A DNA stretch of 64,000 bases. It comes from a virus. The position numbers and the translations under genes are program-made. Location: the IMG/VR virus record IMGVR_UViG_3300046506_000220, positions 1-64,000 of that record; one strand, given 5' to 3'. The notes below the pieces were generated by a model. The model was given only the letters and a program-made list of their open reading frames with translations, did not search any database and was not told the origin of the DNA. Positions within the stretch are counted from its first letter, which is position 1. Each line of letters begins with the position of its first letter. Positions 8,659 through 51,169 of the stretch are shown in pieces.

Positions 8659-8737
8659 AAAATCTTTGACTCCTAACCATGGCGGTCTGAATAATACGGC
8701 TACTTTCACCGAGCAGTCATATTTGAACCAGACTGGT

Positions 8738-9868
8738 ATGCCCAAGAGCATCGCGATCACCCCTCGCATCGAACAGCTCATCTCCCGGAACAACGGGGGT
8801 GAGCACATTGACCTCCATTCAATTGCGGTGTTCGAGGCATCGGTGCTGAACACGCGTCCGCTCTCGCAGCCGGGGTCACTTTTCGACAAGGGTGTGACCA
8901 CCATTGAGACGCTCAACCAGATGGCGACGTATCTGAACAGCGGCGGACTGGTGCCGCTTCAGACACTTCATCAGAACGGTGACGAGCTGCCGGTTGGCCG
9001 CTTCTTCTACGGTGAGGTGCTGCCGTCAACCACGGGTGACGGCTCGAACGAGCTGGTGTGCCTGTTCTATCTGCCGAAGTCGGAGTCCGACCTCGTGATG
9101 AAGATGGACAACGGCATCATCGACGAGGTCAGTGCGAGCCTCGTTGCGCAGCACCTGCTGTGCTCGACGTGCAGCTGGGACTGGCGCAGTGCAGACGCGA
9201 CGTTTGCGAACTTCTATGACCGTACCTGTGGCAACGATCACGTGCTGGGTGCCGATGGTGTCCATCTCAGCATCAGTGGTCTGGACCGGTGGACAGAAAC
9301 GTCGCTGGTGTCGAAGGGGGCGGCGAACAACGCCAAGATTCTGGGCCGCACGAAGCAGCGGCTTGGCCAGGAGCAGTACGACCGCCTGGCGGCTTCGGGA
9401 ATCGTACCCGAGCAACTCATGCTGATTGCCACCACCACCGAAACCCGGAGTCCGAAGATGGATAAAGACATGACCGAACTGATCGAGGGCCTGGCCACCA
9501 CCAGGGCCTCGCTCACACTCAAGGAAACCGAACTCGCGACGGCCAATGCCCGCATCACCGAGCTGACGGGAGAAACGACCCGGTTGAGCGCTGAAGTGGC
9601 GACCCTGAAGGCAGGTACCACGTTGACCGAAACCACTGCGCAGCTCACGGCTGCCCAGGCGCAGGTCACCGAACTGACGGCCGCAGCAGCTGCGAGCGCC
9701 ACGGAGCTGGCGGACACGAAGGCCAAGCTCACCACGGCTGAAGCGCAGATTGCCGTGCTGCAGGCGGGTGCCGGGGCGGGTGGCCGGGGCGAAGGCGCGG
9801 GCGCTGGCAGCAGCCGTGAGGTCAGGCCCAGTGCCCGGAACAACGCGTTCAAGGCCCCCCCGCGTTAA
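8738..9868 (+). CDS. Prohead protease fused to scaffold-like coiled coil
   Basis: About 376 residues. The N-terminal half (IDLHSIAVFEASVLNTRPLS... to about residue 200) has the layout of a capsid maturation protease, and the position between portal and capsid genes fits. From about residue 240 the protein becomes a long Ala/Thr/Glu-rich coiled coil (ELIEGLATTRASLTLKETEL...) with a Gly-rich linker and basic tail, like the scaffold part of protease-scaffold fusions. An internal in-frame ATG at 9458, nine bases after CGGAG, could produce free scaffold protein. The start is uncertain: ATG 8738 fits the domain; a TTG at 8666 is also open. Confidence 0.68.
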   Translation: MPKSIAITPRIEQLISRNNGGEHIDLHSIAVFEASVLNTRPLSQPGSLFDKGVTTIETLNQMATYLNSGGLVPLQTLHQNGDELPVGRFFYGEVLPSTTGDGSNELVCLFYLPKSESDLVMKMDNGIIDEVSASLVAQHLLCSTCSWDWRSADATFANFYDRTCGNDHVLGADGVHLSISGLDRWTETSLVSKGAANNAKILGRTKQRLGQEQYDRLAASGIVPEQLMLIATTTETRSPKMDKDMTELIEGLATTRASLTLKETELATANARITELTGETTRLSAEVATLKAGTTLTETTAQLTAAQAQVTELTAAAAASATELADTKAKLTTAEAQIAVLQAGAGAGGRGEGAGAGSSREVRPSARNNAFKAPPR

Positions 9869-13147: not shown

Positions 13148-13923
13148 TGGCACCGGCCTCGCTGTCGGACCAGTCCGCCGCGCTCAGGGCGTTCGTGGAA
13201 GACCGTTTCTTCTCGACGGTGACGGACCAGCTGGCCGCGTCCGCCGACGGGATCGGGGTCGAGATCCAGTCCGTGCTGACGCAACTGCTGAAGGGCTTTT
13301 TTGCCAGCCTGGCGGCGAAGCTCAATGGTCTGGACGAGCCTTTCGAGGAGATCCGGCCGATTGTTGGAGGATCGTGGATCCCGCTGGGACTTGAATACGA
13401 GAAGTACCGCAAATTCGGCCAGACTGACTACTTTGTGTACTCCGAGCTGCCGATCCTGCGTCGGCGCACGTACCGGTCAAGGAAGCTCAGGCGCACCACG
13501 ATCGGCCTCAAGCGTGACCGGACGGAGAGCCTGCGTAACCAGATGAAGCGCATCAACAATTTCGCCGAGCTTTACGGTGCGGTGATCGTCAACCTTGAAT
13601 CCCACACCACGATCAACAGGGGGGGCCGGCGCCAGTACAAGGCCGGCACCCTGCGCGAGGGCGTCCGGGTGGGTGGACAGATCACCAGGAAATCGAGCGA
13701 TTTCGTCAGCATCGTAGTTGACTGGGTCCCCAATCTCACGGGGCAGGATGTGCTGGTGCGAGGCGTGACTGAAGAGAAGCTCAACCCCCGGATCAAGCGC
13801 AAGCTGCTCAATAGTCAGGATGCCTACCGGCCGCTGATCGGGGCCTACCTGCTCTTTTACCAGAACACCACCGTCAGGGACATCATCCTTGGCACCCTTC
13901 GGAAATATGGCGGCGCCCCATGA
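13144..13923 (+). CDS. Unknown, tail-completion position
   Basis: A 259-residue protein with a helical N-terminus, a Trp-Ile-Pro-Leu segment (GGSWIPLGLEYEKYRKFG) and a very basic middle (RRRTYRSRKLRRTTIGLKRDR). It occupies the slot of lambda Z / HK97 gp10-type tail-completion proteins and is coupled to the next gene through ATGA. Function is inferred from gene order only. Confidence 0.55.
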   Translation: MMAPASLSDQSAALRAFVEDRFFSTVTDQLAASADGIGVEIQSVLTQLLKGFFASLAAKLNGLDEPFEEIRPIVGGSWIPLGLEYEKYRKFGQTDYFVYSELPILRRRTYRSRKLRRTTIGLKRDRTESLRNQMKRINNFAELYGAVIVNLESHTTINRGGRRQYKAGTLREGVRVGGQITRKSSDFVSIVVDWVPNLTGQDVLVRGVTEEKLNPRIKRKLLNSQDAYRPLIGAYLLFYQNTTVRDIILGTLRKYGGAP

Positions 13924-14378
13924 TCAGCACCAACGTCTATGAAGATCATCTGAGCAGCCTGCTGAAGTTCTGCACGGACTTTGCGGCGAGCATCAGTGTC
14001 GACGGAGAGCCCGCGTTTCAGGCGGTCTTCTTCGACGCCTATGACGAGTTCGACCAGCTGCCGGCTGGTTCCCTGATCGGGCCTGCCGGCTATGCGCTCG
14101 ATGTCGACGAACATGTGGTGACCATCAAGGTGATGATCGGCGTGGCCACCGAGATGGATCCGAACACCTTCCGGTTGACGAAGGCGATGGGGAAGTTGAC
14201 CCAGCGGCTGCTGCCGACCCGACGGATTGCCGTGTTTGATGCGGACACTGGCACCGCGATCGGCACCCTGACCGTGCTGGATGGTATTCGCGTGCTGCCC
14301 GAGGCAGGCGGCGGCGGACGGTCCATGAAGTACCTTGCCTTCATGGCCTCGTCCGATGTCACTGCGGATCTTTCTTGA
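13920..14378 (+). CDS. Probable tail terminator
   Basis: A 152-residue protein just upstream of the tail tube gene, the lambda U position. Its mixture of an N-terminal helix (YEDHLSSLLKFCTDFAASI) and strands (VVTIKVMIGVATEMDPN, RRIAVFDADTGTAIGTLTVLDGIRVLPE) fits a tail terminator, which stops tube growth and joins tail to head. Its last 20 bases overlap the antisense gene that ends at 14359. Confidence 0.5.
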   Translation: MISTNVYEDHLSSLLKFCTDFAASISVDGEPAFQAVFFDAYDEFDQLPAGSLIGPAGYALDVDEHVVTIKVMIGVATEMDPNTFRLTKAMGKLTQRLLPTRRIAVFDADTGTAIGTLTVLDGIRVLPEAGGGGRSMKYLAFMASSDVTADLS

Positions 14379-14556
14379 GGAAACTCTCCATGAGTTGCCG
14401 GTCGCGGTCTACACCCGCCTGGATACCCGCTTCGACCAGGAAGTGGATCTCGGAATTGCGGGTGCGCTTGTTCAGTTTGCGGCGTGCATCCACCTGGGCG
14501 ACCAGCGAACGCGGGAGCCGCGTGGTGAAGGCGATGATTTCGTCATTGTTTTCCAA
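14359..14556 (-). CDS. Arc-type ribbon-helix-helix protein, antisense
   Basis: A 65-residue protein on the opposite strand to the whole late operon. Residues about 7-50 match the Arc/MetJ fold: a beta strand (AFTTRLPRSLVAQVD), a helix, and NSEIHFLVEAGIQAG as the second helix. The best start is TTG at 14556, seven bases after AGGGGG; no ATG is available in frame downstream of the stop-free start region. Two GTAGCA words, nine bases apart (14600-14605 and 14609-14614), lie just upstream and could be its operator. It would be a DNA-binding regulator, perhaps of late genes; the target is unknown. Confidence 0.72.
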   Translation of the reverse strand: MENNDEIIAFTTRLPRSLVAQVDARRKLNKRTRNSEIHFLVEAGIQAGVDRDRQLMESFLKKDPQ

Positions 14557-14650
14557 GATGGTGCCCCCTTCTACCAAACAAAACCTTTGATTGTTGATGG
14601 TAGCAAACGTAGCATCCCGTAACCAAGGATTTATTCGAGGAGAACTAACG

Positions 14651-15442
14651 ATGGCTGGCGAAGCAATTACCCAGAAGTTCATGCTCGGAACGGCCACCGT
14701 GATGATCGGTGCCCAGGCCGACCTCTTCAATCTGAATCCCGCAGAGCACTCGATTGGCCTCGTCAAGAATTTCTCGATCAGCGGCCAGCCGGCGTACACG
14801 GAACTGACCCAGGGCGTGAAAAACTCGGTCGTGTATTCGGTGATGACGGGCAACCCGGTCACGGCCACGATGGAGGTGTACGAGCACACCTCGAAGACGC
14901 TCACATACAGCCTGGGGCTCGATGGCTCCGCACTGTCGGCCAGTACCGTTTCGACGACCACCAATGCCGATACGCCAGCCAACCCGGCCGGCAACGCGGT
15001 GATCCCGGTGGCGCTCGTGACCGGCTTTGCAGCTGGCGACTGGCTGCAGGCCCAGGTGCCAGGTCAGGGCGATAAGCTGCTGGTCGCCCAGGTGAAGGAG
15101 ATCGACGACACCGCCAAGACGATTACGGTCGCCGATGCGCAGTCGTTCTCATACGCGCTGCCGATGGGCACGGTCGTGAAGAAGGTCAACGTCATCGGTG
15201 TCGGTTCGAAGGCCGACCAGCCGTTCCTGTCGGCCAAGATCGTCGGCAACCTCGCCGATGGCATGCCGGTGGCGCTGCTGATCCCGAAGATCCGCATCAC
15301 CGGGGGCTTCACGCTCGCGTTCAAGACCGACGCGTTCGGCAACCTGCCCTACAAGTTCCAGCCGTACGACCTGACGGCAACCGATCCGTTCTACGCTGAC
15401 TTCCTGCCGTACGGTCAGGCACTGCTGGCGGCGGCGTCCTGA
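14651..15442 (+). CDS. Major tail (tube) protein
   Basis: A 263-residue beta-rich protein directly before the frameshifting chaperone pair, the lambda V position. The start at ATG 14651 is preceded by GAGGAGAACTAACG. Strand-rich stretches and an Ala/Thr-rich loop (ASTVSTTTNADTPANPAGN) are seen; residues about 110-190 look like an extra surface domain inserted into the tube fold. Tube proteins polymerise into the non-contractile tail. Confidence 0.8.
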   Translation: MAGEAITQKFMLGTATVMIGAQADLFNLNPAEHSIGLVKNFSISGQPAYTELTQGVKNSVVYSVMTGNPVTATMEVYEHTSKTLTYSLGLDGSALSASTVSTTTNADTPANPAGNAVIPVALVTGFAAGDWLQAQVPGQGDKLLVAQVKEIDDTAKTITVADAQSFSYALPMGTVVKKVNVIGVGSKADQPFLSAKIVGNLADGMPVALLIPKIRITGGFTLAFKTDAFGNLPYKFQPYDLTATDPFYADFLPYGQALLAAAS

Positions 15443-15485: not shown

Positions 15486-15519
15486 AGCCCACCGGTTGCA
15501 ATAATCGGTGGGCTTTTTC
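15486..15519 (+). terminator. Terminator/attenuator after tail tube gene
   Basis: AGCCCACCG (15486-15494) pairs with CGGTGGGCT (15506-15514), followed by TTTTTC. It would lower expression of the chaperone and tape measure genes relative to the tube protein. Confidence 0.85.
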
Positions 15520-34075: not shown

Positions 34076-37000
34076 ATGGCCAACAGCGGCGCCCCCACCA
34101 ACGCGGATGGTGCAACGGTCACGACCGTGCTGGCGCCCGTTGCCTCGACGACACCGCATGCGCCGATCGCGATGCTGTATGGTCTCGGCCCACCGATCAG
34201 CAGCATCGGGGTCGAGGGCGCGTTCTACCGGGACATGAACAACGATGACATGTACGGTCCCAAGGCGGGCGGTGTGTGGCCTGACGCGTACAGCATCCGT
34301 GGCTGGAAAGGTGACCAGGGTGTGCAGGGTGAGGTTGGGACGCTCAACCCGGACGACCAGGCCTACATCGACGCGGCGAAGACCGCTACGGATGCCAACC
34401 GCACCGCTGCTGCTGCCAGTCAGGCTGCTGCCGCGACCAGCGCAACCAGTGCGGGGACGTCAGCCACCAATGCGCATACGAGCGAAACGAACGCAGCTGC
34501 AAGTCAGGCCGCCGCCGTAACAAGCCAGGCCGCCGCCGACGCATCGAAGACGGCCGCGGCCGGCAGCGCGACGCAGGCCGACACCTCGAAAAATGCTGCG
34601 GCGACGAGTGCCGGCGCGGCGAGCACCTCGGCGACCGCTGCGGACCAGTCGAAGCAGGCCGCCGCGACGAGTGCTACCGCCGCAGCCGGCAGCGCTACCG
34701 CCGCTGATACGTCGAAGACGGCAGCGGACGCCAGCAAGACTGCTGCGGCCGGCAGTGCGACGGCAGCAGGCAACAGCGCGACGGCCGCCGCCCTTTCCGC
34801 AACCAGCATCGGTAACTCGGAAACGAATGCCCTCGCCTCGAAGAACGCGGCGGCTGCGAGCGCCAGCGCCGCCGACGTATCGAAGACGGCCGCTGCCGGC
34901 AGTGCCACCGCAGCCGCTACGAGTGCGACGGGCGCGGCCAGCTCGAAGACGGGCGCTGACAACAGTGCCACGGCAGCGGCTGGTAGCGCGACGGCAGCGG
35001 ATGCCAGCAAGACTGCTGCTGCCGGCAGTGCGACGGCAGCGGATGCCAGCAAGAGCGCTGCTGCGGGTTCCGCCAGTGCCGCAGCCGGCAGCGCCACAGC
35101 AGCGGACGCCAGCAAGAGCGCTGCCGCTCTTTCCGCCAGCAGCATCGGTAGCTCGGAAACGAACGCCCTGGCTTCGGCCAATGCAGCGGCGGCGAGTGCG
35201 AGCGCCGCCGACGTATCGAAGACGGATGCTGCCACGAGCGCGACGGAGGCTGGGTCGAGTGCGACGGCAGCAGCCACGAGCGCGACGGAGGCTGATGACA
35301 GCGCTGCTGCAGCAGCCGGTAGTGCAACGGCAGCGGATACCAGCAAGACGGCTGCCGATGCATCGAAGACAGCTGCTGCCGGTAGTGCAACGGCCGCTGC
35401 CGGCAGTGCGACGGCAGCAGGCAACAGCGCCGCCGCCGCGAGCGCCAGTGCCGCCAGCATCGGTAGCTCGGAAACCAATGCCCTGGCCTCGGCGGATGCA
35501 GCGGCAGCCAGTGCCAGCGCCGCCGACGTATCGAAGACGGCCGCTGCCGACAGTGCAACGGCCGCTGCCGGCAGTGCCGCCGCAGCCGCGACGAGTGCGA
35601 CGGCGGCAGCCACCTCGAAGACGGGGGCTGACAACAGCGCTGCTGCAGCGGATGCCAGCAAGACGGCTGCGGCAGGTTCCGCCAGTGCCGCAGCCGGCAG
35701 TGCGACAGCAGCAGGCGACAGCGCGACGGCGGCAGGCGACAGCGCGACGGCGGCAGGCGACAGCGCGACGGCCGCTGCCCTGTCGGCCACCAGCCTCGGT
35801 AACTCGGAAACGAACGCCCTGGCTTCGGCCAATGCAGCGGCTGCGAGCGCGACGGACGCAGCCGGCAGCGCGACGCAGGCCGATACATCGAAGCAGGCGG
35901 CGGCGACGAGCGCAGGTGCTGCGAGCAGCTCAGCCACGGCAGCGGACCAGTCGAAGCAGGCGGCAGCGACGAGCGCCACGGCCGCCGCCGCGAGTGCCAC
36001 CGCTGCTGACACCTCGAAGAACGCCGCAGCCGGCAGCGCGACAGCGGCAGGTAATAGCGCGACAGCGGCAGGCGATAGCGCCACGGCGGCAGGCAACAGC
36101 GCCGCCAGCATCGGCAACTCGGAGACGAACGCACTGGCCTCGGCTAATGCTGCGGCGGCCAGCGCGACGCAGGCCGATACATCGAAGCAGGTGGCGGCGA
36201 CGAGCGCGAGCGCAGCCGCGACGAGTGCGACGGCGGCAGCCACCTCGAAGACGGGGGCTGATAACAGTGCCACGGCAGCAGCTGGCAGCGCCACGGCAGC
36301 GGATGCGTCGAAGACGGCTGCTGCTGGTAGTGCCACGGCAGCAGGTAACAGCGCCACAGCAGCGGACGCCAGCAAGACTGCTGCGGCCAGCAGCGCCACG
36401 GCAGCGGCCACCTCCGTCGCCAGCATCGGTAACTCGGAAACGAATGCCCTGGCCTCGGCCAATGCCGCTGCGGCGAGCGCTGCTGCCGCCGATACATCGA
36501 AGAATGCTGCGGCGACGAGTGCAGGTGCAGCCGCAACTAGTGCGACGGGCGCGGCCACCTCGAAGACGGGGGCGGACAACAGCGCCACGGCAGCGGATGC
36601 CAGCAAGACTGCAGCGGCTGGTAGCGCCAGTGCTGCTGACACCTCGAAGACCGCTGCTGCCGGCAGCGCGACGGCAGCGGCCGGTAGCGCCACGGCGGCG
36701 GACACCAGCAGGACAGCTGCCGCAGGTTCTGCTACTGCAGCAGCTGACAGCGCCACGGCGGCAGGCAACAGCGCGACCGCGGCGGCTAACAGCGCATCGG
36801 GTGCAGCAACCAGCGCGAACAATGCCTCAGCAACGTTAGCGAACGCCCTGACGAAGGCTAATAACCTGTCCGATGTGGCTGATGCTGCCACCGCGCGCTC
36901 GAACCTCGGGCTGGGCACGGCAGCTACGCACCCCGTCGGGGACCTGCTCCAGACGGCGAACAACCTGTCCGACGTGACCCCCGCCACCGCGCGCTCGAAC

Positions 37001-37543
37001 CTCGGGCTGGGCACGGTTGCCACGCACCCCGTCGGGGACCTGCTCCAGACGGCGAACAACCTGTCGGACCTCCAGAGTGCATCGACCGCGCGCTCGAACC
37101 TCGGGCTGGGCACGGCAGCTACGCACCCGCTCACGGACTTCGTCCAGCCGACGAACAACCTGTCGGACGTGCAGAACGCGGGGACCGCGCGAGCCAACAT
37201 CGGGGCCAATGTGTACGACATTGCGCTGTCGATTGAAGGCAAGACAACCAACGCAGAGCTGGTGTTCAACTTTGTGGTGGGGCGTGCCTTCACCTGGCCC
37301 GCGAACCTTACCGGCTCCGCGGCGAAAGCGTCCGTTGCAGCAACCGCTTCAGCGACCTTCTCGATCACGCAGAACGGTGGCGCGATTGGCTCTTTCAACT
37401 TTGCAGCCAGTGCCACGGTTGCCACGTTCACTTTCGCTTCTCCCGTGACCTTTGCCGCAGGCGACCTGATCCAGATTACGGCTCCGGCGACCGCTGATAC
37501 CACCCTCGCGAATATCGGCGTGACCTTTGCAGGAACACGGTGA
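34076..37543 (+). CDS. Side tail fibre (Stf-like), 1,155 residues
   Basis: A long fibre. Residues 1-95 form a conserved head with a short collagen-like turn (GWKGDQGVQGEVG). Residues about 100-920 are an Ala/Ser/Thr/Gly repeat of the AAAGSATAADTSKTAAAGSA type, like lambda Stf and T5 L-shaped fibres, expected to make a trimeric coiled rod. Residues about 925-1040 hold NNLSDV..TARSNLGLGT repeats, as in many fibre tips. The last 100 residues (DIALSIEGKTTNAELVFNFVVGRAFTWPANL...) form a beta-rich end. There is no intramolecular chaperone domain. Confidence 0.92.
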   Translation: MANSGAPTNADGATVTTVLAPVASTTPHAPIAMLYGLGPPISSIGVEGAFYRDMNNDDMYGPKAGGVWPDAYSIRGWKGDQGVQGEVGTLNPDDQAYIDAAKTATDANRTAAAASQAAAATSATSAGTSATNAHTSETNAAASQAAAVTSQAAADASKTAAAGSATQADTSKNAAATSAGAASTSATAADQSKQAAATSATAAAGSATAADTSKTAADASKTAAAGSATAAGNSATAAALSATSIGNSETNALASKNAAAASASAADVSKTAAAGSATAAATSATGAASSKTGADNSATAAAGSATAADASKTAAAGSATAADASKSAAAGSASAAAGSATAADASKSAAALSASSIGSSETNALASANAAAASASAADVSKTDAATSATEAGSSATAAATSATEADDSAAAAAGSATAADTSKTAADASKTAAAGSATAAAGSATAAGNSAAAASASAASIGSSETNALASADAAAASASAADVSKTAAADSATAAAGSAAAAATSATAAATSKTGADNSAAAADASKTAAAGSASAAAGSATAAGDSATAAGDSATAAGDSATAAALSATSLGNSETNALASANAAAASATDAAGSATQADTSKQAAATSAGAASSSATAADQSKQAAATSATAAAASATAADTSKNAAAGSATAAGNSATAAGDSATAAGNSAASIGNSETNALASANAAAASATQADTSKQVAATSASAAATSATAAATSKTGADNSATAAAGSATAADASKTAAAGSATAAGNSATAADASKTAAASSATAAATSVASIGNSETNALASANAAAASAAAADTSKNAAATSAGAAATSATGAATSKTGADNSATAADASKTAAAGSASAADTSKTAAAGSATAAAGSATAADTSRTAAAGSATAAADSATAAGNSATAAANSASGAATSANNASATLANALTKANNLSDVADAATARSNLGLGTAATHPVGDLLQTANNLSDVTPATARSNLGLGTVATHPVGDLLQTANNLSDLQSASTARSNLGLGTAATHPLTDFVQPTNNLSDVQNAGTARANIGANVYDIALSIEGKTTNAELVFNFVVGRAFTWPANLTGSAAKASVAATASATFSITQNGGAIGSFNFAASATVATFTFASPVTFAAGDLIQITAPATADTTLANIGVTFAGTR
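34370..36840 (+). repeat. GCN-rich codon repeat tract of the fibre rod
   Basis: About 2.5 kb of near-repeats encoding Ala-, Ser-, Thr- and Lys-containing heptad-like units; a GNSETNALAS(A/K)NAA-type segment recurs about every 110 residues (starting near 34808, 35143, 35461, 35800, 36114 and 36424). Homologous exchange between units could change rod length. Long false reading frames on the other strand arise from this composition. Confidence 0.9.
36857..37200 (+). repeat. NNLSDV tip repeats
   Basis: Four copies of a unit of about 33 codons: Asn-Asn-Leu-Ser-Asp, variable bases, TARSNLGLGT, ATHPVGDLLQ. Copies start near 36862, 36958, 37057 and 37153, with strong base identity. This motif is common at the end of phage fibre shafts. 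Confidence 0.88.
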
Positions 37544-42732: not shown

Positions 42733-43419
42733 ATGAGTGTGATCTGTATAGGAACAGAGAAGGGCGGCACTGGGAAAAGCACGCTGACTCAGAGTATTTC
42801 TGCCCTTCGAGTAGGGTTGAATTACAGGGTTGCGGTCGTCGACTTCGATAATCAGGGGACTACCGCGCTATGGGCCGATACTCGCGACGAGGATCAAGGG
42901 TTGAAGTCGATCAAGCTGGCCGTTCCACAGTACAACTCGAAGGTGAGTCACGCGGACTACTTTGCTGGCTTCATCACTGACCTGGCAGCGAGTTACGACG
43001 ACGTGTTCATTGACGTGGGTGGGAAAGACTACGATGTCTTCCGCGCTGCACTGGTGGCCGCAGACAAGATCGTCGTGCCGCTGGAGCCAAGCCCAGCTGA
43101 CCTGAACACCATGCCGCCGTTCGCCGCGCTGGTGGACGAGCTGCAAAAACTCATCGGCCGCAAGTTCGATGTGGGCGTGGTGCTCAACAAGGCCGACGAT
43201 TCACCGATCATGCTGGCCGGGATGCTCGAAGGCATGGGCCAGTTCAAGAAGGTCGTGCCTCTGATGAAGACGCAGGTCGGAAACCGCGCCGCGTTCAAGC
43301 GCGCGACGGAGGAGGGCAGGGGCGTCACCGAGCTGGTTCGCGTCAAGGGCAAGACCAAGCCCGATCTGGCCGCGATGAACGAGATCAAGGACCTGTACCT
43401 GGAGATTTTCGGAAAATGA
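42733..43419 (+). CDS. parA: ParA-type partition ATPase
   Basis: A 228-residue deviant-Walker ATPase. KGGTGKST near residue 12 is the signature P-loop; VVDFDNQGT and VFIDVGG are Walker A' and B. The protein lacks an N-terminal HTH domain, so it is of the small (type Ib) class, where the partner protein does the DNA binding and repression. It moves plasmid copies apart over the nucleoid. Confidence 0.93.
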   Translation: MSVICIGTEKGGTGKSTLTQSISALRVGLNYRVAVVDFDNQGTTALWADTRDEDQGLKSIKLAVPQYNSKVSHADYFAGFITDLAASYDDVFIDVGGKDYDVFRAALVAADKIVVPLEPSPADLNTMPPFAALVDELQKLIGRKFDVGVVLNKADDSPIMLAGMLEGMGQFKKVVPLMKTQVGNRAAFKRATEEGRGVTELVRVKGKTKPDLAAMNEIKDLYLEIFGK

Positions 43420-43900: not shown

Positions 43901-44260
43901 ATTGGGACATTTTCCGGGTTGGCTGAGAGTTTTCCACAGCCAACTTGGTTTTTAGAAAGACGTTTTTTCGTTTTAACTACGTTTTAGCCTTTCCAAGCTA
44001 TTGATTTTCAAGCAGTAAACGCTGCCTATTGGGACATTTTCCGGGTTCTATTGGGACATTTCCCGGGTTCAAAGGGACATTTCCCGGGTTATTGGGACAT
44101 TTTCCGGTTTGGGGCCAGGTCGCTTCCGGCAGTTATCCACAGGGTACAGCCAGTTCAAGCGGGCTATGGGCGAATTCAACCGTCTATTAGCCAAGGTCAA
44201 GCTGTTGTAGGATTGGGACATCCTAAAGTTTTGCCCCAATAACCCGGAAAATGTCCCAAT
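43901..44260. other. Iteron replication origin
   Basis: Four direct near-perfect 20-mers (ATTGGGACATTTTCCGGGTT type) at 43901, 44028, 44050 and 44071 plus one at 44091 with a changed end, a half copy at 44212, and one inverted copy at 44241-44260 whose last bases include the rep start codon. A consensus DnaA box TTATCCACA lies at 44133-44141 and a variant TTTTCCACA at 43930-43938. An AT-rich tract with several CGTTTT words (43950-43990) is a likely unwinding element. All parts of a Rep_3-type origin are present; the inverted copy would let Rep repress its own gene. Confidence 0.9.
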
Positions 44261-45005
44261 GAATTCTCCGCTTCCTAAGTCGATGCCAGTCACTGAGCTG
44301 CACGTTAACATGAGCAACGCCTTGACGCGGGCTGCACACAGCTTGAGTCTCGCGGAGAAGAGGGTCGTCGCCGCGTGCATCGCGCAGTGTGACTCCGTTC
44401 CGATGAAGGAGCTGGAGCGCGACGGAGCGTGGACCGTTCGGCTGCGGGCGACAGACTTCGCAGAGACCTATGGCATCGACGCAACCACAGCCTATGAGCA
44501 GCTGAAGGATGCAACAGACGTGCTGATGAAGCGTCAGGTCACCTTCACGGTGCCAGCGAAGCGCGGGCCGCGCGTCATCAAGTACCAGTGGGTGGGAAAG
44601 GCTGTGTATTACCACGGGGAAGGGTGGATCGAGATCGAATGGTCCAAGGACATCGTTCCGCATCTGTTCGGGCTGCGCAAAGAGTTCGTCTCGTACAAAC
44701 TGAAGCACGCGGCGGCGCTCCGCTCGCTCTATTCGTGGCGGCTGTTCGAGTGCCTGAAGTCCTGGCAGGGGACCGGTGAGTGGTCGCCAACGATCGAGGA
44801 GTTCAGTCACGCGATGGATGTTCCTGACAAGTACCGGGCGAATTTCAAAGAGACTCGTGTACGGGTGATCGAGCCAGCGGTGGCTGAGCTGCGGGAGAAG
44901 AGCGGGCTGTTGGTGGAATGGGAGACCAAAACCGCTGGACGGAAGGTCGTAGGATTACACTTCAAATTCGAAGTAAGCCCCCAGCAACAACTCGCGTTGG
45001 AGTAG
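44259..45005 (+). CDS. rep: Rep_3-family replication initiator
   Basis: 248 residues with two winged-helix domains in the RepE/Pi/RepA style. MSNALTRAAHSLSLAEKRVVAACIAQCD opens the first, and RATDFAETYGIDATTAYEQLKDATDVLMKR follows. The second carries FVSYKLKHAAALRSLYSWRLFECLKSW and FKETRVRVIEPAVAELREKSGL. It binds the iterons as a monomer to start plasmid replication and the inverted iteron as a dimer to repress. The start codon lies inside the inverted iteron. Confidence 0.93.
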   Translation: MNSPLPKSMPVTELHVNMSNALTRAAHSLSLAEKRVVAACIAQCDSVPMKELERDGAWTVRLRATDFAETYGIDATTAYEQLKDATDVLMKRQVTFTVPAKRGPRVIKYQWVGKAVYYHGEGWIEIEWSKDIVPHLFGLRKEFVSYKLKHAAALRSLYSWRLFECLKSWQGTGEWSPTIEEFSHAMDVPDKYRANFKETRVRVIEPAVAELREKSGLLVEWETKTAGRKVVGLHFKFEVSPQQQLALE

Positions 45006-50688: not shown

Positions 50689-50913
50689 ATGCTTGCAATC
50701 CGGCTCCCCAGGGAGATCGAGGAGCGTCTTGATGCGCTGGCAGCCGCCACAGGGCGCACCAAAACCTTTTACGCCCGTGAGGCGATCCTGGAATACATCG
50801 ACGATCTGGAAGACCTCTACCTTGCCGAACATGAGCTTGAGGAAATCCGCGCCGGGCGCAGCATCCCCATTCCACTTGAAGATGTGATGAAGCAGTATGG
50901 TCTGGCGGATTGA
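50689..50913 (+). CDS. RelB/RHH-type antitoxin
   Basis: 74 residues: LAIRLPREIEERLDALAAATGRTKTFYAREAILEYIDDLEDLYLAEHELEEI is a ribbon-helix-helix dimer module followed by the toxin-binding helix. ATG 50689 has GGGAGG eight bases upstream. It neutralises the toxin encoded by the overlapping next gene and should repress through the palindrome. Confidence 0.88.
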   Translation: MLAIRLPREIEERLDALAAATGRTKTFYAREAILEYIDDLEDLYLAEHELEEIRAGRSIPIPLEDVMKQYGLAD

Positions 50914-51169
50914 GTTGTCGGGGCTGGCACAGAAAAATCTGCGCGCCCTCGATCATGGAGCCGCAGACCGCATCCTGCGATATCTCACCGATCGGGTTGC
51001 CAGGCTGGACGACCCCCGCAGCATCGGCGACCCGCTCAAAGGCGCGAAGCTCGGCGAGTTCTGGAAGTATCGCGTGGGCGACTACCGGATCATCGCCGAC
51101 ATTCAGGACCACGCGTTGTGCATTCTGGTGGTGCGGATCGGCAACCGCCGCAAGGTCTACAGGCAATGA
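50897..51169 (+). CDS. RelE/ParE-type toxin
   Basis: 90 residues with VWRIELSGLAQKNLRALDHGAADRILRYL, GDPLKGAKLGEFWKYRVGDYRIIADI and LVVRIGNRRKVY, the standard RelE plan including the basic C-terminal end. It overlaps the antitoxin gene by 17 bases. Probably an mRNA interferase stabilising the element. Confidence 0.9.
   Translation: MVWRIELSGLAQKNLRALDHGAADRILRYLTDRVARLDDPRSIGDPLKGAKLGEFWKYRVGDYRIIADIQDHALCILVVRIGNRRKVYRQ

Follow-up and report, generated by a model that had tools for sequence, protein, structure and literature searches.

The gene found antisense within the structural operon of a tailed phage, between a presumed tail-terminator gene and the gene for the major tail-tube protein, encodes an Arc/Mnt-type ribbon-helix-helix (RHH) protein. 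This protein is likely to be a locally acting, and probably autoregulatory, repressor of the tail-tube promoter that is dedicated to the tube. As the arrangement recurs in nearly every distant relative examined, the gene is probably a dedicated switch that restrains production of the tail tube, and not a passenger. Within this repressor reading, binding to DNA, the sign of the control (repression and not activation), autoregulation and timing are inferred. The window analysed here is a stretch of 64,000 nucleotides (positions 1 to 64,000 of the IMG/VR record IMGVR_UViG_3300046506_000220), and coordinates refer to it. The locus comprises the following features.

13920-14378, plus strand: presumed tail-terminator gene, preceding the tail tube, its function assigned by position only
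14359-14378: tail-to-tail overlap of 20 nt between the RHH gene and the tail-terminator gene
14359-14556, minus strand: Arc/Mnt-type RHH gene, 65 codons (65 aa) with a TTG start, identified by open reading frame, profiles, model and homologues
14564-14572, minus strand: Shine-Dalgarno sequence AGAAGGGGG of the RHH gene, seven nt upstream of the TTG start, identified by sequence
14637-14642, plus strand: Shine-Dalgarno sequence GAGGAG of the tail-tube gene, identified by sequence
14651-15442, plus strand: major tail-tube protein gene (263 aa), the predicted target, identified by fold match and by synteny with the tape-measure chaperone
15486-15514, plus strand: intrinsic terminator behind the tail-tube gene, a hairpin of 13 pairs with a T run after it

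The original prediction described an antisense RHH gene of 65 residues, with its own ribosome-binding site and a TTG start, overlapping the tail terminator. This description was confirmed by the open reading frame, the AGAAGGGGG sequence, the 20-nt overlap, the profiles and the structural model. Its coding status was beyond chance, as 42 distinct homologues were found at the same spot and dN/dS values of 0.05-0.37 indicated purifying selection. The protein scored 19.0 bits against the Pfam family Arc (PF03869), just below the cut-off of 20.4, and matched PHROG 3178 ('Arc-like') with an E value of 1e-4. Among 32 homologues, 25 matched PF03869 at E 0.05 or better (best 2.8e-8), and the RHH protein of locus L072 passed the Pfam cut-off with 27.1 bits. 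When a profile of the 32 homologues was compared with all PDB sequences, the best match was AmrZ (7e-7), followed by Mnt (1.3e-4) and Arc (about 1e-3). An AlphaFold model (pLDDT 90) displayed the two RHH helices at residues 16-29 and 33-62, and its best PDB matches were P22 Arc and AmrZ (probability 0.97-1.0, E 0.03-0.09); the model is that of a monomer, and the intermolecular ribbon lies beyond such a model. By its modelled fold, the protein is of the Arc/Mnt type. Its alignment with P22 Arc was gapless, with R13, P15, R31, N34 and E36 common to both, in what we take to be Arc numbering. Arc positions 9, 11 and 13 are the DNA-reading residues; here they are A, T and R, as in nearly all members of the close family. 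An antitoxin of a type II toxin-antitoxin system was also considered and rejected because a toxin neighbour is absent: both neighbours are structural genes on the other strand, and no co-directional toxin gene adjoins.

The model of the 14651-15442 product (pLDDT 82) had as its best Foldseek match 9n71, the tail tube of Acinetobacter phage Mystique (E 9.8e-21, TM 0.80), and the next-best structures were other tube proteins. By modelled fold, this product is the tail tube. A terminator hairpin was annotated at the equivalent place in Achromobacter phage JWF and Caulobacter phage Seuss.

Relatives were collected from viral contigs, bacterial genomes, phage records and plasmids with the tail tube as bait. 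Lack of conservation in relatives with divergent flanks was among the things that would have refuted the original prediction, and the gene proved to be conserved: an antisense RHH domain was present opposite the tube in 51 of 59 tail-tube loci, which cover 21 of the 25 clusters formed at 70% tube identity, with one further locus (L059) where the RHH gene spans the end of the record. Over 608 kb of tube loci, all RHH matches (54/54) fell inside the tube gap and none elsewhere. RHH distances followed tube distances (Mantel r 0.70, 0 of 2000 permutations). A search of 2.9 million viral contigs with the RHH alignment returned 11 loci, every one already known through its tube; a search of viral contigs with the single RHH protein gave no matches, whereas the tube bait and the RHH alignment did find relatives. 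Taken together, conserved position, dN/dS, Mantel correlation and the loci from the RHH search exclude chance and make cargo very unlikely. Reverse orientation and a ribosome-binding site of its own are typical of morons, and the gene could have been such an insertion in the structural operon, expressed in the plasmid state. However, it occupies one site only, in nearly all relatives (the 21 of 25 tube clusters) and is absent elsewhere, it diverged in step with the tube and it has no link to plasmid genes, so that a cargo origin is scarcely credible.

No clear RHH gene of this type was found in the records of L052 and L080 (Azospirillum), L071, Pseudoalteromonas phage KB12-38 and the Acinetobacter phages; the gap in these relatives, about 110 nt or less, is too short to hold an RHH gene. 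Variants of the gene were also observed. Seuss (L015, 2959-3351), L072 (3545-3904) and L073 (3504-3866) carry an antisense gene with two tandem RHH domains, Xylophilus phage Lumi (L016, 3062-3319) carries an antisense RHH gene and an RHH-like gene occupies the equivalent place in pMaq22A_3p, a circular Methylobacterium plasmid. The family is mostly unannotated, being absent from the Seuss and Lumi records (including the tandem-domain gene of the former) and labelled 'hypothetical' in phage 2-1 and pMaq22A_3p.

Across loci, the RHH start lies about 85-160 nt before the tube ATG whatever the length of the gene, and this steady distance ties the RHH gene to the tube promoter. It also bears on another reading, in which the act of leftward transcription is what regulates: the tail-terminator gene and the upstream operon would be limited by antisense RNA or by colliding polymerases, the protein only autoregulating the transcript. 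The antisense orientation, the 20-nt overlap with the terminator gene and the failure to find a minus-strand intrinsic terminator after the RHH gene are in line with it. In addition to the constant distance, purifying selection on the protein and the conserved RHH residues speak against it, since they indicate that the protein matters, and we give this reading little credence.

In the window, the RHH gene start and the tail-tube ATG (14651) are separated by a divergent gap of 94 nt, in which three elements are predicted.

14587-14592, plus strand: predicted -35 box of the tail-tube promoter, TTGATT, which lies within the conserved word AACCTTTGATT
14610-14615, plus strand: predicted -10 box TAGCAT, with a 17-nt spacer from the -35 box
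14599-14624: candidate operator GGTAGCAAACGTAGCATCCCGTAACC, with outer GGT...ACC edges and twin GTAGCA words, overlapping the -10 box

Within this 94-nt gap, the window alone gave no significant signal for promoter score (p 0.135), direct repeat (p 0.26) or inverted repeat (p 0.49). The twin GTAGCA words pointed out in the original prediction are present (14600-14605 and 14609-14614) and supported by conservation, but as a repeat alone they are the non-significant direct repeat just given. Relatives at 59-78% tube identity have in common AACCTTTG(A/C)TT...GGTA(G/T)C...TAnnAT...ACC. A position model built without the window scored 48.3 bits at 14579-14620, and no other site in the 82.8-kb record exceeded 1.0 bit; the conserved element was assessed within one clade whose members are not independent. 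The pattern AACCTTTGNNTN6GGTNNCN5TANNAT occurred in 11 viral contigs, which were exactly the close family, with one copy each; as a chance-level control, the same pattern spaced one base off matched four contigs, all outside the close family. TTGnnT followed by TAnnnT at 17 or 18 nt was found in all 13 sequences anchored on AACCTTTG, against a per-sequence null of 1-6%; some of these sequences have only 50-56% tube identity, and the interior of the hexamers and the spacer vary.

In gaps accompanying an RHH protein with the A-T-R ribbon, GGTT/AACC words numbered 43 where 14.2 were expected; gaps with other RHH ribbons showed no such enrichment (10 against 9.2 expected). This association rests on few independent events since the gap sequences are related. 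This enrichment, which tracks the A-T-R ribbon, may be taken as an indirect sign of sequence-specific DNA binding. Among distant members the RHH gene is kept and the gap sequences differ, the minus-strand promoter often being clearer than the plus-strand one; generic sigma-70 scoring of 35 loci clearly favoured neither strand. For the window itself, no convincing leftward promoter was found. The gap of Lumi contains strong promoter-like sites on both strands (TTGAGA-17-TAGAAT on the plus strand and TTGCCT-17-TATCAT on the minus strand). In the Acinetobacter relatives devoid of an RHH gene (L028, L029 and L030), a promoter-like site of the TATAAT type immediately precedes the tail tube; a tube-specific promoter may therefore exist without the repressor.

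The same gap could also be bound by an activator. The RHH protein might activate the tube promoter, or switch both ways like AmrZ, as a late-gene timing factor; AmrZ, the closest solved relative by profile, does act both ways (PMC3325190), and the weakness of the predicted promoter would suit an activated one. The candidate operator, however, lies over the -10 box and not upstream of the -35 box, which is a blocking position for an RHH protein, and activation is considered unlikely.

A plasmid state had been mentioned in the original prediction. The genome carries the following replication and partition features.

42733-43419: ParA-like ATPase
44028-44107: about four 22-bp tandem repeats, upstream of Rep3
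44259-45005: Rep3 initiator, with the 22-bp tandem repeats just upstream

The segment 42733-45005, with ParA, a small protein having a weakly RHH-like C-terminus, the 22-bp repeats and Rep3, is an iteron plasmid replicon within a phage. Two toxin-antitoxin pairs were also observed: at 50689-51169 a gene resembling RHH antitoxins precedes a ParE/RelE-family toxin gene, and in L083, the remainder of the genome, an AbrB/MazE-like gene is followed by a PemK/MazF-family toxin at 8733-9313 (genome positions 72733-73313). Given Rep3 with its repeats, ParA and toxin genes of both the ParE and PemK/MazF types, the plasmid state is sound for this genome. A link between the RHH gene and that state was rejected because Rep3 is present in only 2 of 29 related records; a tyrosine integrase is present in 15 of the 29, and many RHH carriers have neither. 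The suggestion of a cargo gene expressed in the plasmid state was thus not upheld, as the RHH gene occurs in nearly all tube relatives, including those with an integrase and no plasmid genes and those with neither. What the RHH gene tracks is the tail tube, and not how the phage persists.

Other repeats were noted in the record. Near its start (7-114), an 11-bp unit, CCTCCAGCCTT, is present in nearly ten head-to-tail copies. An ORF of 1155 aa at 34076-37543 contains nested repeats of 21, 63 and about 315 bp and resembles a tail-fibre-like repeat gene; the opposite strand of the region also carries a long open frame. Words resembling TGCTAC at 34-37 kb were tried as extra operators and rejected, as they have 2-3 mismatches and lie inside a repeat-rich gene.

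The main targets of the RHH protein could also lie elsewhere in the phage or host genome, the protein acting in trans on lysogeny, immunity or copy number. P22 Arc and Mnt govern the immunity region and the present record is a phage-plasmid, both of which would agree with such a role. Against it, each genome of the close family has a single copy of the element, located here, and the RHH gene is found alike in relatives with an integrase, with a Rep3 replicon and with neither of them; a trans-acting regulator of this kind is quite unlikely. The earlier proposal that the gene may control late or lysogenic genes is retained for its late part, narrowed to the tail-tube promoter, and the same single occurrence of the operator goes against its part on lysogeny genes elsewhere.

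Under the preferred reading of a local repressor of the tube, the small RHH dimer would bind the conserved GGT/ACC element in the divergent gap. The bound element would cover the -10 box of a host-type promoter, TTGATT-N17-TAGCAT, and RNA polymerase would be blocked at the tube gene, while autoregulation would limit the leftward transcript of the RHH gene itself. With its own predicted promoter and an intrinsic terminator, the tube gene can therefore give a separate, abundant transcript. The tube promoter would be kept shut by the repressor early in infection and for as long as the phage persists as a prophage or plasmid. Rightward transcripts leaving the tail-terminator gene would run antisense through the RHH gene; late transcription of the structural operon, in crossing it, should cut repressor synthesis, and the tube promoter would open late.

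The usual view of phage late genes is that they are controlled together. If the proposed mechanism is true, the existence of a conserved repressor for the major tail protein alone would imply separate regulation of tube supply, perhaps for the sake of assembly order, stoichiometry or evasion of tube-sensing defences. Self-polymerisation of tube proteins and defences that sense the tube, such as DSR2, are possible reasons for a tube-specific lock. It is tentatively suggested, as a possibility that may well not hold, that this tailed-phage lineage has a one-gene device for a single virion protein, in which an antisense Arc-type repressor, passed on together with the tube gene in widely differing hosts and modes of persistence, holds the self-polymerising tube off until late and possibly also evades tube-sensing host defences. 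A concrete promoter, operator and regulator are proposed by prediction, and a function is offered for a mostly unannotated gene family.

Both the fold and the logic of a divergent repressor are already known. A description of a dedicated, lineage-wide pairing of RHH and tail-tube genes was not found in the open-access literature searched. The closest annotated case is PJWF_00017 (AJD82911.1) of Achromobacter phage JWF, an orthologue in the same place and on the same strand, given in GenBank as 'Arc-like DNA binding domain protein'; unlike the family described here, it was annotated singly, and no description of its position, conservation or target was found in the same open-access literature.

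AmrZ of Pseudomonas aeruginosa, the best PDB profile match, is likewise an Arc/Mnt-like RHH protein and is autoregulated (PMC3325190). It differs in being a chromosomal, larger, multi-target regulator of virulence genes. SvtR of the archaeal virus SIRV1 represses its own gene and the late structural gene gp30 (PMC5569661), and the likeness drawn here is to its mode of action, not to its sequence. It belongs to an archaeal virus with archaeal promoters, its site is about 80 nt from the gp30 promoter elements and it has other viral sites besides.

Arc and Mnt of the P22 immI region (PF03869) have the same fold, size and RHH sequence type as the protein described here. P22 Mnt is transcribed divergently from the operon under its repression. 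The immI region is also placed among virion genes, in the order 16-sieA-mnt-ant-9 (PMC11016777). The P22 module has two paired RHH genes, whereas the present loci have a single RHH gene, in some cases with two domains. In P22, moreover, the divergent RHH gene controls an antirepressor gene (ant), whereas here no such gene adjoins: the neighbours are the gene in tail-terminator position and the tail tube, and the divergent partner is the major tail-tube gene itself.
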